From Geothrix sp. SG200 (GTDB lineage: Bacteria > Acidobacteriota > Holophagae > Holophagales > Holophagaceae): a DNA stretch of 64,000 nucleotides. The position numbers and the translations under genes are program-made. A model generated the notes under the pieces. That model made no database searches. It was not told the DNA's origin and saw only the letters and a list, made by a program, of their open reading frames with translations. Every line of letters begins with the position of its first letter. Positions within the stretch are counted from its first letter, which is position 1. Below are positions 25,290 through 30,627 of the stretch, one piece after another. The stretch spans positions 62,001-126,000 of the forward strand of contig NZ_JAKZFR010000005.1 in the NCBI RefSeq assembly GCF_022808935.1, given 5' to 3'.

Positions 25290-26693
25290 ATGGCTTCCTT
25301 CGACCTCCTCGTCATCGGCTCCGGCCCCGGCGGCTACATCGCCGCCATCCGTGGCGCCCAGCTGGGCCTCGCCACGGCCCTGGTGGAGAAGGATGCGGGC
25401 CTGGGGGGCACCTGCCTCCACCGCGGCTGCATCCCCGCCAAGACCTGGCTGGAGAGCGCCCACCGCTTCGAGCAGATGCAGGTGGCCGACGACTACGGCA
25501 TCGACGGCGTGGACGCCAAGAGCCTGAAGGCCAACCTCGCCACCATCGTCAAGCGCAAGGGCCGCATCGTCCTGAAGAACGCCAAGGGCATCGAGTTCCT
25601 CATGAAGAAGAACAAGGTGACCGTGCTCAAGGGCTTCGGCAAGCTGCTGGGCGGCGGGCGGGTGGACGTGGCCGGCGAAGTGCACGAGGCCAAGCGCATC
25701 ATCCTGGCCACGGGGTCGGCCCCCAAGCCCATCCCCGGCCTGGAAACGGATGGCGTCCGGGTGCTCAACAGCGACCACATCCTGGACCTCACCGAGCTGC
25801 CGAGCCACCTGGTCATCCTGGGCGCCGGCGCCATCGGCGTGGAGTTCGCCTCCGTCTTCAGCCGCCTGGGCTCCAAGGTGACCCTGGTGGAGTTCATGGA
25901 CACCATCCTGCCCCTCGAGGATGAGGAGATCGGCCTGGAGCTGGCCAAGATCTTCAAGAAGACCTACAAGATGGACGTGCGCACCAAGACCAAGATCACC
26001 CGCATCGAGAAGCGGGACGACGGCGTGGTGTGCTTCCTCGAAGGCGAGACCCCCGGCGAGGTGGTGGGCAGCCACCTGCTGGTGGCCGTGGGCCGCGCGC
26101 CCATGGTGGAGGGCATCGGCCTGGAGGCCACCAAGGCCCAGGTGGACCGCGGCTGCGTCGTCATCGACAAGTTCATGCAGACCGGCGAGCCCGGCCTCTA
26201 CGCCATCGGTGACATCGTGCGCACGCCCTGGCTGGCCCACGTGGCCAGCGACGAGGGCATCGTGGCCGCCGAGCACGCCGCGCAAAGCCTGGGCAAGGAC
26301 GTGCATCCCCACCCCGTGCGCTACGACCGCTTCCCCGCCTGCACCTACTGCGATCCCGAGGTGGGCACCATCGGCCTCAACGAGAAGGCCGCCAAGGCCA
26401 AGGGCTACGACGTGCAGGTGGGCACCTTCCCCTTCGCCCCCATGGCCAAGGCCAACATCGTGGGCGAGCCCCACGGCTTCATCAAGATCGTGGCCGACAA
26501 GAAGTACGGCGAGATCCTCGGCATCCACATCCTCGGCCCCAAGGCCACCGAGCTCGTGGCCTCCAGTGTGGCCCTCATGGGCGGCGAGTTCACCGTGGAC
26601 GAGCTCATCAACACCATGTATCCCCACCCCAGCCTGAACGAAGTGTTCCCCGAGGCGGCAAGGGCGGTGTATGGGCGGGCGTTGAATATGTAG
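25290..26693 (+). CDS. lpdA: Dihydrolipoyl dehydrogenase
   Basis: 467 residues. FAD site GSGPGGYIAAIRGAQLG, redox disulfide C42/C47 in GGTCLHRGCIPAKT, NAD site GAGAIGVEFAS, and the C-terminal dimer-interface HPHPSLNE-like YPHPSLNEVFPEA. It is the E3 of 2-oxo-acid dehydrogenase or glycine-cleavage complexes. No E1/E2 genes are adjacent, so it may serve several complexes. Confidence 0.94.
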   Translation: MASFDLLVIGSGPGGYIAAIRGAQLGLATALVEKDAGLGGTCLHRGCIPAKTWLESAHRFEQMQVADDYGIDGVDAKSLKANLATIVKRKGRIVLKNAKGIEFLMKKNKVTVLKGFGKLLGGGRVDVAGEVHEAKRIILATGSAPKPIPGLETDGVRVLNSDHILDLTELPSHLVILGAGAIGVEFASVFSRLGSKVTLVEFMDTILPLEDEEIGLELAKIFKKTYKMDVRTKTKITRIEKRDDGVVCFLEGETPGEVVGSHLLVAVGRAPMVEGIGLEATKAQVDRGCVVIDKFMQTGEPGLYAIGDIVRTPWLAHVASDEGIVAAEHAAQSLGKDVHPHPVRYDRFPACTYCDPEVGTIGLNEKAAKAKGYDVQVGTFPFAPMAKANIVGEPHGFIKIVADKKYGEILGIHILGPKATELVASSVALMGGEFTVDELINTMYPHPSLNEVFPEAARAVYGRALNM

Positions 26694-26733: not shown

Positions 26734-26764
26734 CGAAGAACCGCCCAACATGGGCGGTTCTTCG
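26734..26764. terminator. Terminator downstream of lpdA
   Basis: A 14-bp perfect stem (26734-26747 with 26751-26764), ACA loop; the right arm ends in GGTTCTTCG. It marks the edge of the ordinary chromosome before the AT-rich cassette island. Confidence 0.8.
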
Positions 26765-26779
26765 TATGTAGAAGGATTG

Positions 26780-26901
26780 GACTAACAAATGAAGCTAACC
26801 GGCCACGCCTGCGCCGAGTCTCTGAACGGAGCCGAGGAAGCGGGATATTGAGAGAGAACGCAAAGCAATGCAGGCGGGGCCTGGTTGAGCGCAGGCTAGG
26901 C
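26780..26901 (-). other. attC-like integron recombination site A
   Basis: A 122-bp imperfect inverted repeat. Read on the - strand it begins GCCTAGC (R''-like, one change from RYYYAAC), continues with GCTCAACC, and ends GGCCGGTTAGCTTC...GTTAGTC (R'-like with the GTT cleavage triplet). GCAGGC-type arms near 26805-26812 and 26870-26875 pair internally. It lies exactly 12 nt after the stop of the lipoprotein gene and shows high similarity, by eye, to site B over its full length. Inference: a cassette attC. Confidence 0.72.
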
Positions 26902-26913
26902 CAGAGATGGGTT

Positions 26914-27840
26914 TCACTTTAAATTTAAATATTTTAATAAATGATATTTACCGGTTTTCATGTCTTCGAGAGTGACGGTAGAAGGACGAGCTGAATAATT
27001 TGTTTCGTACCATTCTGGTGGATTTTTAAAACGTTCATACCGACGGGTGATGGGTCTATTTTTTGTAGCAATAATAGCTAAAGGTTGTTTTGACTGATTA
27101 ACAGAAATTTCTATACCAGCAGAGAACGGTATGGTTGCTGTATAGTCAAAGTCATTGCCGTGGTCGCTATAATTACCAAGATAAGTGGCATAATCCTTCC
27201 AGCGTGCAAATTCATATTGAAATTCGCCGATGATATTAATTGAATCGCCATTTACGCTACCGACATAAAGACCGGGTAGATTAGACCCTTTATCCTTGGA
27301 TGTTATAGCCATGTGCCCGACAAGTAAAATATTGTCCCTGCTAGGTCGTCGATAGTTGTGTTCGTGACCATAATCATTGAATGCCCAATAGTTTGTTAAC
27401 CCTAAGGATTTAATCTGCACTATCATTGATTCTGATTCGAAGCGAGAGTTGTCGTGAATAGCTTTGAAGCCAAGCCGTTTAATTCGTTCAGCTTCTTGGG
27501 CATCACGAATGAGTTTCTGTTCTAGGTTTTTAACCAAGACTTCGGCTTTGACCTTTTCCGGAGAAAGTGGATATTTTGACATCATATCCGCTAATAACTT
27601 TTTAGATTCCTGCAAATTTTGTTTCTTAATTTCGGATGAAATCGATTCAAGCAGGTTGGCTGGGGTTAATTTGAGATTAGCATTCTCAATTTCTAGGGCT
27701 GAAATTCTTTGTTTCAATTGATTAATCTCGGATTGAGAAATGCTGTTGTCCGAGGCTTTGTTGGAGCAGGCAACTGTAATTGCGATGCATAATGTTGGTA
27801 TAGCAAAATCTTGAATAGATTTGGATATGTAGGATGTCAT
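26914..27840 (-). CDS. Cassette-borne lipoprotein with coiled coil, unknown function
   Basis: 308 residues. N-terminal hydrophobic stretch with lipobox-like TVAC (C25), then a heptad-rich helix (about 35-60, INQLKQRISALEIENANLKL) and a second helical part to about 125. The C-terminal half (about 130-308) is a Trp/Tyr-rich globular region that I do not recognise. AGGAGAAATT is immediately upstream of the ATG. Base composition is far more AT-rich than the neighbours. It sits between sites B and A as a single-gene integron cassette. Confidence 0.75.
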   Translation of the reverse strand: MTSYISKSIQDFAIPTLCIAITVACSNKASDNSISQSEINQLKQRISALEIENANLKLTPANLLESISSEIKKQNLQESKKLLADMMSKYPLSPEKVKAEVLVKNLEQKLIRDAQEAERIKRLGFKAIHDNSRFESESMIVQIKSLGLTNYWAFNDYGHEHNYRRPSRDNILLVGHMAITSKDKGSNLPGLYVGSVNGDSINIIGEFQYEFARWKDYATYLGNYSDHGNDFDYTATIPFSAGIEISVNQSKQPLAIIATKNRPITRRYERFKNPPEWYETNYSARPSTVTLEDMKTGKYHLLKYLNLK

Positions 27841-27905
27841 AATTTCTCCTGATAGAAGTTGTAAGGTAAATATATTTGAGTTGAAGGTTTACTATTTTTT
27901 ATGAA

Positions 27906-28029
27906 GCCTGACGAATGAAGCTAATCGGCCCCGCCTGCACCGAGGCGAGGAGCGGAGCCGAGGAGGCAAGGAGTTGAGAGAGAGCGAAAGACAATGCAGG
28001 CAGGGTCCGAGTTGAGCGGAGGGTTAGGC
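27906..28029 (-). other. attC-like integron recombination site B
   Basis: A 124-bp imperfect inverted repeat. On the - strand it starts GCCTAAC (perfect RYYYAAC), spacer CCTCC, then GCTCAAC, and ends GGGGCCGATTAGCTTC...GTCAGGC (one change from GTTRRRY). It begins exactly 12 nt beyond the stop of the 132-residue gene. Read on the + strand the terminal GTTAGGC would be a perfect R', but gene orientation favours the - strand reading. Confidence 0.75.
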
Positions 28030-28041
28030 GCAAGCGAGTAT

Positions 28042-28440
28042 CTATAGCAATTTTGCTTTGTCGTTCAATGCTGGATATTCGAAAGGAAGTACTTCTACAT
28101 CAGGCTGCTCGACGATCTCGGAACCCAATAGTACAGACGCCCATTGGTTGGGTGTGCGTTTGATCGTTCTGATGGTTTTAGTGGTTCTATTCGATTTAAT
28201 GGTGGCAATTTTTTCTTGCAAATGAATGACGCTCCCTGTCCCTCTTAATATTTCAAGCCTACCGAGGTTTTCATTTGTTTCTGGGTCAAAAAGTTCTTCA
28301 GTTTCAAGAAAATATACTAAGAATTGATCGCCAATTTTCAATCCGTGATCACTACCTTTGTTGATAACAAGAGTGTATTCGTTGATGATTTTAACAATAG
28401 AGGCAATAAGTTGTCTTTTGGGGTTAACTTCATTAGACAT
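28042..28440 (-). CDS. Cassette-borne hypothetical protein
   Basis: 132 residues, no signal peptide or membrane helix. Residues about 10-45 (IVKIINEYTLVINKGSDHGL, then KIGDQFLVY) look like the small beta-barrel seen in FlgT C-terminal-like domains, a weak resemblance. GAAGGAGCTGTTA precedes the start. It overlaps the upstream 183-residue gene by 8 bp, so the two form one cassette operon. AT-rich. Confidence 0.7.
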   Translation of the reverse strand: MSNEVNPKRQLIASIVKIINEYTLVINKGSDHGLKIGDQFLVYFLETEELFDPETNENLGRLEILRGTGSVIHLQEKIATIKSNRTTKTIRTIKRTPNQWASVLLGSEIVEQPDVEVLPFEYPALNDKAKLL

Positions 28441-28984
28441 TAACAGCTCCTTCTATTATATAGTTTGGAACGGATGGTTTAATGATTAACTTTGATAGAT
28501 CATCGGAACGATTCTCATACAAGGCCTTCCATCTGTCTCCAAAATCGACATCAGAAATGACAGCTATTTGAATCTTTTTGTCTAATTGAATGTTAATCAC
28601 TCGCCCGATCCCTACAAGTCTTTCAAGTTCGGATTCAAGTATGTAAATGGAAACGAGACTGTCATAAGTCAAAAGTGGAGTTGGATTTAATAACAATAAA
28701 GCATGTGTGGTTTGGTACGCACCAAGGGGTTTTCTGGCTATTTTTATTTTAGGTAAAAAATTATTAGAATAATTATAAGAATCAATAAAAGCTCGTAACA
28801 ATACTAGGCATAGATATGCGAAAATCATAAAAATAACTATTACCCACCTTGCTTCATATTTGGTTTCTTTGGGGATTATAAATAATGATATTGTTGTAGC
28901 GAAAAACCCTAGCGCAGTGATTACCCCACCCCAGGATTTTATGGCTGCTGATAAAAGTATGTCTATCTGGGATTGTTCATGCAT
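28433..28984 (-). CDS. Cassette-borne two-helix membrane protein, unknown function
   Basis: 183 residues. Two hydrophobic segments (about 18-36 and 45-65), followed by a C-terminal soluble domain of about 115 residues with alternating beta-like segments (GIGRVINIQLDKKIQIAVIS). No recognised motif. CGAGGGTG precedes the ATG. Its overlap with the 132-residue gene suggests a membrane-anchored pair acting together. Confidence 0.7.
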   Translation of the reverse strand: MHEQSQIDILLSAAIKSWGGVITALGFFATTISLFIIPKETKYEARWVIVIFMIFAYLCLVLLRAFIDSYNYSNNFLPKIKIARKPLGAYQTTHALLLLNPTPLLTYDSLVSIYILESELERLVGIGRVINIQLDKKIQIAVISDVDFGDRWKALYENRSDDLSKLIIKPSVPNYIIEGAVNV

Positions 28985-29304
28985 TACACCCTCGGAAAAT
29001 GGAGGATTGGTTGGAATTGGGAACGATCTTCATGATAGTGCCTAATTAAGATTTGAACGAACAATAACAAGCAGGAATGAAAGTCGCCTAATCTGAGCTA
29101 CAGGGGCGTAACTGCTGATTGAATACTAAGGTGATCGGATTGGCGACACGCTAGGGCAACCGAAGAGAGAGGTTGCCTTAACACTCGACAGAGAGAAGGA
29201 CCTTAGGTGCTTCCCATGGAGACACACTGGTCTTGTATCTTCAAGAGAGATCGTTCAAACGGTCGAAACTCCGCCCCGAACGGTAGGGCCCTCCCGTCAA
29301 TGAC
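28985..29304. other. Intergenic region right of the cassette island
   Basis: 320 bp. Two GCCTAAT heptamers (29040-29046 and 29086-29092), i.e. ATTAGGC on the - strand, are one base from the GTTRRRY core and could be a decayed cassette boundary. A 7-bp hairpin is at 29155-29177 (GGCAACC, 9-nt loop). No gene and no intI is visible. GC content rises to normal by about 29270. Confidence 0.5.

Positions 29305-30627
<1,323 letters not shown>

Follow-up and report, generated by a model that had tools for sequence, protein, structure and literature searches.

The window analysed here, a 64,000-nucleotide stretch of Geothrix sp. SG200 DNA on contig C6 of the assembly, carries a short array of integron cassettes between two host genes. 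The features of the locus are, in window coordinates:

25290-26693, plus strand: lpdA (dihydrolipoamide dehydrogenase; function named from sequence), a host gene forming the left border and syntenic in relatives
26734-26764, no strand assigned: terminator-like inverted repeat after lpdA (a self-inverted match); the array stops just beside it
26780-26901, minus strand: attC #1, 122 nt, the distal end of the array; boxes R' 26780-26786 GTTAGTC and R'' 26895-26901 GCCTAGC (core AAC to AGC, degraded)
26914-27840, minus strand: ORF C, gene of cassette 2, 308 aa, no family match over cut-off, possible lipoprotein
27906-28029, minus strand: attC #2, 124 nt; boxes R' 27906-27912 GTCAGGC (core GTT to GTC, degraded) and R'' 28023-28029 GCCTAAC
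28042-28440, minus strand: ORF B, second gene of cassette 1, 132 aa, resembling FlgT_C weakly (20 bits; the cut-off is 27)
28433-28984, minus strand: ORF A, first gene of cassette 1, 183 aa, no family, overlapping ORF B
29040-29145, minus strand: decayed attI, with the expected cut between 29046 and 29045 separating ...CGTTCAAATCTTAA from TTAGGC; core G to A at 29046
29146-29304, minus strand: leader separating the attI from the adjacent gene, conserved in sister species
29305-30627, minus strand: protein-kinase-like host gene (function named from sequence), the right border, syntenic in relatives

Read along the minus strand, the order is the decayed attI with its leader, the ORF A/ORF B cassette with attC #2 and the ORF C cassette with attC #1, with the lpdA terminator nearby. 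An earlier note on this DNA had described two alike elements of 122 and 124 nt as attC sites and had placed them correctly, their ends at 26901 and 28029 lying 12 nt from the minus-strand ORF stops at 26914 and 28042. The AT-richness that it reported between them also holds, the cassette ORFs having 36–38% G+C against 68–72% in the flanks.

By their sequence and inferred fold, both elements are attC sites. A profile HMM trained on 68 attC copies from elsewhere in the same genome, with both window copies left out, detects attC #1 with E = 8.1e-29 (98 bits) and attC #2 with E = 1.1e-36 (124 bits), and finds no third copy in the 64-kb window. A genome search with element 1 returned 40 scored matches, the relatives being 81–86% identical and grouped in single orientation on contigs C4, C5, C10 and C3, and closer scanning of the array contigs gave 70 attC copies, including large arrays. 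The copies lie in same-orientation arrays, the suggested likeness to a sedentary chromosomal integron is supported, and instead of a scatter in random orientation we found no wrong-strand attC in 60 flanks examined. The 70-copy alignment has the box consensus GCCTAAC...GTTAGGC, in agreement with the proposed RYYYAAC...GTTRRRY ends, but in each window copy one core box is degraded.

The attC hairpin consists of R''/R' and L''/L' arms, the L'' arm having two extra bases. Across 54 copies 94.5% of cells are paired and eight pairs show double changes, a level reached by none of 500 shuffles; this covariation is stronger structural support than folding the single window copies, whose plus strands give modest z-scores of only -2.3 and -1.5. 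Two further sites in one Geothrix locus (L031:12591-12724 and L031:15044-15179) are attC with standard outer arms; their inner stem differs yet remains self-complementary. A scan of the window against Rfam gave no match, and we know of no Rfam family for attC. The earlier note proposed folding the minus strand, but integrases use the attC bottom strand (PMC11023631), which here is the plus strand of the window.

At the head of the array stands a decayed attI with its leader, so the locus is more than a pair of attC sites, a point that the earlier note did not reach. At intI loci the attI consensus reads about CGTCCAATTCAAAG up to the cut, followed by TTAGGC, and in the integrase-bearing integron intI lies on the leader side of attI at about the distance spanned by the window leader. 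With plain blastn the window head gave no significant match to intI loci or within its own genome, and the site is detectable only with profiles and sister-species heads. An extended attI profile built without the window has its best match in the 64 kb at 29040-29145, stopping exactly where the first cassette starts, at a score (9.7 bits, E 0.16) that is not significant alone. The identity of the head comes from homology, since its leader is homologous to those found in sister species between the same two host genes, where the attI core can still be recognised. A profile made only from attI sites at intI loci matches the lpdA-kinase locus of G010 (4.5e-9), G. fermentans (G007, 9.3e-6) and G. 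oryzisoli (G006, 1.4e-5). A leader profile, built from the window, G. paludis, G. campi and G. terrae leaders, matches array heads in G014 (2e-34), G. oryzisoli (3e-28) and G. fuzhouensis (G060, 3e-26), and these matches end at or close to independently found attI cores. The change of core G to A at 29046 suggests that attI function has been lost in the window.

Three core changes are common to the window and G. paludis, namely A for G at the attI cut, AGC in R'' of attC #1 and GTC in R' of attC #2. Between the two, the cassette genes show 12 changes at 410 synonymous sites and 7 at 1459 nonsynonymous sites (p about 1e-4), and in ORF C alone by 9 synonymous and 2 nonsynonymous changes (p 3e-5). 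Compared with its G. paludis copy, ORF C is under purifying selection by this measure. The window array has probably been immobilised while selection keeps its genes; we read it as immobile because its attI and both attC sites have damaged core bases, and those of G. paludis likewise.

Of the cassette genes, ORF A apparently has two membrane helices (judged by eye), ORF B has only weak partial matches beyond G. paludis, and ORF C has no relative among 247 genomes of the phylum save in G. paludis. A defence-system search of the cassette genes gave nothing. A promoter scan of the array found 11 sites where 6.5 +/- 2.4 are expected, and we therefore claim no promoter.

A CALIN is, reportedly after Cury et al. 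(IntegronFinder), a cluster of attC sites lacking an integron integrase. The window locus resembles one in having at least two attC sites, no adjacent intI and a single cassette orientation. Its two attC sites have boxes and a foldable hairpin, though one core box per copy is degraded, and its cassette genes all lie on the minus strand with attC at their 3' ends and stop codons 12 nt before them. The arrangement of a complete integron, intI adjoining attI, is not found here. The earlier description of a CALIN without intI accordingly stands for the window, a two-cassette CALIN, but not for the genome, which has one full-length intI on contig C8.

This integrase, of 342 aa and near the contig end, scores 468.6 bits against a TIGR02249 cut-off of 265 and is the only one in the genome above it. 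Its closest solved structure is 2a3v, an integron integrase (3.7e-83), and the catalytic tyrosine region and IntI-specific segment are present by eye. Among 20 fetched intI loci, intI adjoins the same metallopeptidase-like gene in 13 and lies beside lpdA or the kinase gene in none. Three Geothrix genomes (G012, G019 and G011) have two integron integrases over the cut-off.

The position between lpdA and the kinase gene is occupied well beyond SG200. About ten species carry attC, attI or remnants there, with intI absent from the locus in all of them, and host flanks match across species. The first cassettes are common only to the window and G. paludis, 'different' being judged by blastn alone, so that diverged homologues could be missed. 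This sharing of one locus with different cassettes is, again, a finding beyond the earlier note. One genome, G018 (L075, G018:C15), has only a short interval between lpdA and the kinase gene, with neither cassette nor attI. In a tree of the single gene lpdA, G018 nests with G. rubra (G001) and G010, in which an array or remnants are present, and because it thus falls inside the platform-bearing clade the cassette-free junction looks like a loss.

By host flank, another four platforms are shared as orthologues by three to five genomes, and their first cassettes differ in every pair although intI is absent from all four. At the C7 platform, SG200 and its G. paludis counterpart differ over ~1.7 kb, after which the following sequence matches at 93% over 3.2 kb.

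Arrays of this kind occur throughout the genus. Across 47 Geothrix genomes, an attI core pattern derived from the same genus occurs 88 times, compared with 21 times for its reversed control; in the SG200 genome the corresponding numbers are 7 and 0. Of 41 attI-like sites located away from intI and with enough sequence behind them, 36 by hand count have an attC on the same strand within the next 1.4 kb (binomial tail about 8e-42 with a chance rate of 5%, a rough upper guess), and none of the 41 has a wrong-strand attC or a nearby intI. In SG200 itself the other attI-core sites without intI are C3:2732, C3:499445, C6:188815, C7:144806 and C9:123, four of which head attC arrays, the other being at the end of a contig. 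At C3:499445 the first cassette of the array (L134) encodes a protein that starts KRFQVFVSSTFLDLQKER and is reminiscent of DUF4062 proteins. Core matches at G021:C299 and G069:C29 (L191, L192) have downstream DNA 90% similar and no attC; they are probably chance matches at an unrelated orthologous site.

Several of the genomes are fragmented, and the satellite pattern also holds in near-complete ones. The single-contig assembly of G032 contains one intI above the cut-off but three attI-headed arrays, located at 581,288 (beside intI), 1,546,870 and 2,640,104. Similar cassettes are found in intI arrays and in satellites, even within one genome; in G. rubra, the first cassettes of the intI array and of a satellite are alike (93% over 230 bp). 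The genome of G. fermentans DSM 14018, a cultured isolate, has satellite attI sites with an intact core, as does that of G. oryzisoli.

Many bacterial genomes contain CALINs, and off-target insertion, intI loss and rearrangement are competing accounts of how they arise. Our reading, to which we give a probability of roughly 0.7, is that the window holds a two-cassette CALIN, one of several attI-headed satellites served in trans by one IntI, and that it is now probably immobile. The C8 integrase would most likely have served the satellite platforms in trans, none having an integrase of its own. IntI would insert circular cassettes at the attI of each array (attI x attC) and would excise them by attC x attC recombination; later, all three window sites would have lost core bases, the genes being kept by selection. 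Mobilisation of CALINs in trans by a functional IntI is accepted (PMC12444791). Recombination by IntI at the Geothrix satellites is suggested by cassette turnover at platforms without intI, since turnover at loci that lack intI in every species is difficult to account for in another way, be it that intI disappeared before these species diverged or had never been present. The cassette differences could stem in part from homologous recombination or from loss out of once longer arrays.

A degraded integron is the origin commonly proposed for a CALIN (PMC9024848), and intI, attI and cassettes may once have lain together between lpdA and the kinase gene, with intI since lost and no activity in trans needed. 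The window attI is separated from the next gene by about as much DNA as an attI-intI leader normally has, so an intI could have been cleanly cut out, and the few Geothrix genomes with two intI genes would agree with such a past. We nevertheless think this origin unlikely, as none of the roughly ten species has intI at the locus and yet their cassettes differ, the same being true of the four other orthologous platforms, and as, even had intI been lost before these species diverged, cassettes would have had to turn over in trans afterwards.

The reading that we considered at the outset, and dropped once the attI head was found, was simple off-target insertion, in which IntI would have put main-array cassettes into a secondary chromosomal site of the attG type, with no attI. 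The process is established in other bacteria, going by the citation of Loot et al. 2024 in PMC11023631, and both the distance of the array from intI and the cassette-free lpdA-kinase junction of G018 would suit it; however, the array has an attI at its head with a ~260-nt conserved leader common to sister species, and the empty G018 site, lying within the platform-bearing clade of the single-gene tree, looks like loss, leaving insertion of this kind improbable. It is less probable still that the elements are ordinary dispersed hairpin repeats, REP-like and unrelated to integrons, which the array architecture contradicts. The elements are numerous imperfect palindromes and the window copies fold only modestly better than shuffles, as such repeats might, but the R boxes, the tandem cassette spacing, the single orientation, the intI and attI of the same genome and the two extra arm bases all argue for attC.

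A second attI type (CGTCCAAGTCTAG) was found at 13 sites, and at most of these a unit of ~215 bp ends in its own attI. The unit immediately follows an attC cut in seven cases and a head attI in three others and at the C8 locus of SG200; it occurs in several Geothrix species, at L035:9349-9563 (G000:C8, the SG200 genome), L144, L157, L158, L163, L168 and L174. The window leader family matches these units weakly (E 0.001-0.25), at the right position. The unit has no obvious gene and is positioned as a cassette would be that had attI for its recombination site. It resembles the Delta-attI cassettes of class 1 and class 2 integrons (PMC12901181) in being bounded by an attI-derived site instead of attC, and differs from them in its ~215-bp length, in its full attI with leader, in lacking an obvious gene and in its occurrence in several species. 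It is conceivable, at odds that we would put somewhat short of even, that Geothrix has a distributed integron in which one integrase acts on several attI-headed arrays and the mobile ~215-bp attI unit distributes docking sites inside arrays and may also found new platforms.

Integrons are known to occur in Acidobacteriota (PMC8618304), and acidobacterial attCs are part of an existing model set with 51–505 attCs per taxon model (PMC8352920). Integrons in the phylum are thus not new, since their attCs had already been collected, and the earlier description of its cassettes as little studied needs that qualification. The Geothrix arrays are like the Vibrio-type superintegron in their many cassettes with similar attC and a conserved intI locus (contig C8), and unlike it in that the cassettes are distributed over several attI-headed arrays, not one. 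From the usual CALIN they differ in carrying attI and leader at the head, and in being several per genome at fixed loci. The only precedent that we found is a Shewanella prophage CALIN, which is attI-headed and shares its genome with a complete integron; that is one case inside a prophage, whereas the Geothrix arrangement is genus-wide, with several arrays per genome that are orthologous between species. We found no literature on Geothrix integrons or on several attI-headed arrays per genome, most subscription papers being outside the search. CALINs are usually treated as degraded integrons, and IntegronFinder detects no attI outside class 1 (PMC9024848); with attI outside class 1 not annotated, attI-headed arrays would therefore look like plain CALINs.

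With acidobacterial integrons, CALINs and one attI-headed CALIN (that of the Shewanella prophage) already known, the novelty probably lies in the genus-wide arrangement, the window alone being a well-supported, probably immobile attI-headed CALIN. If the Geothrix satellites are active in trans, one enzyme could fill several docking positions, and if Geothrix does have a distributed integron, its CALINs would be working satellites and not wreckage.
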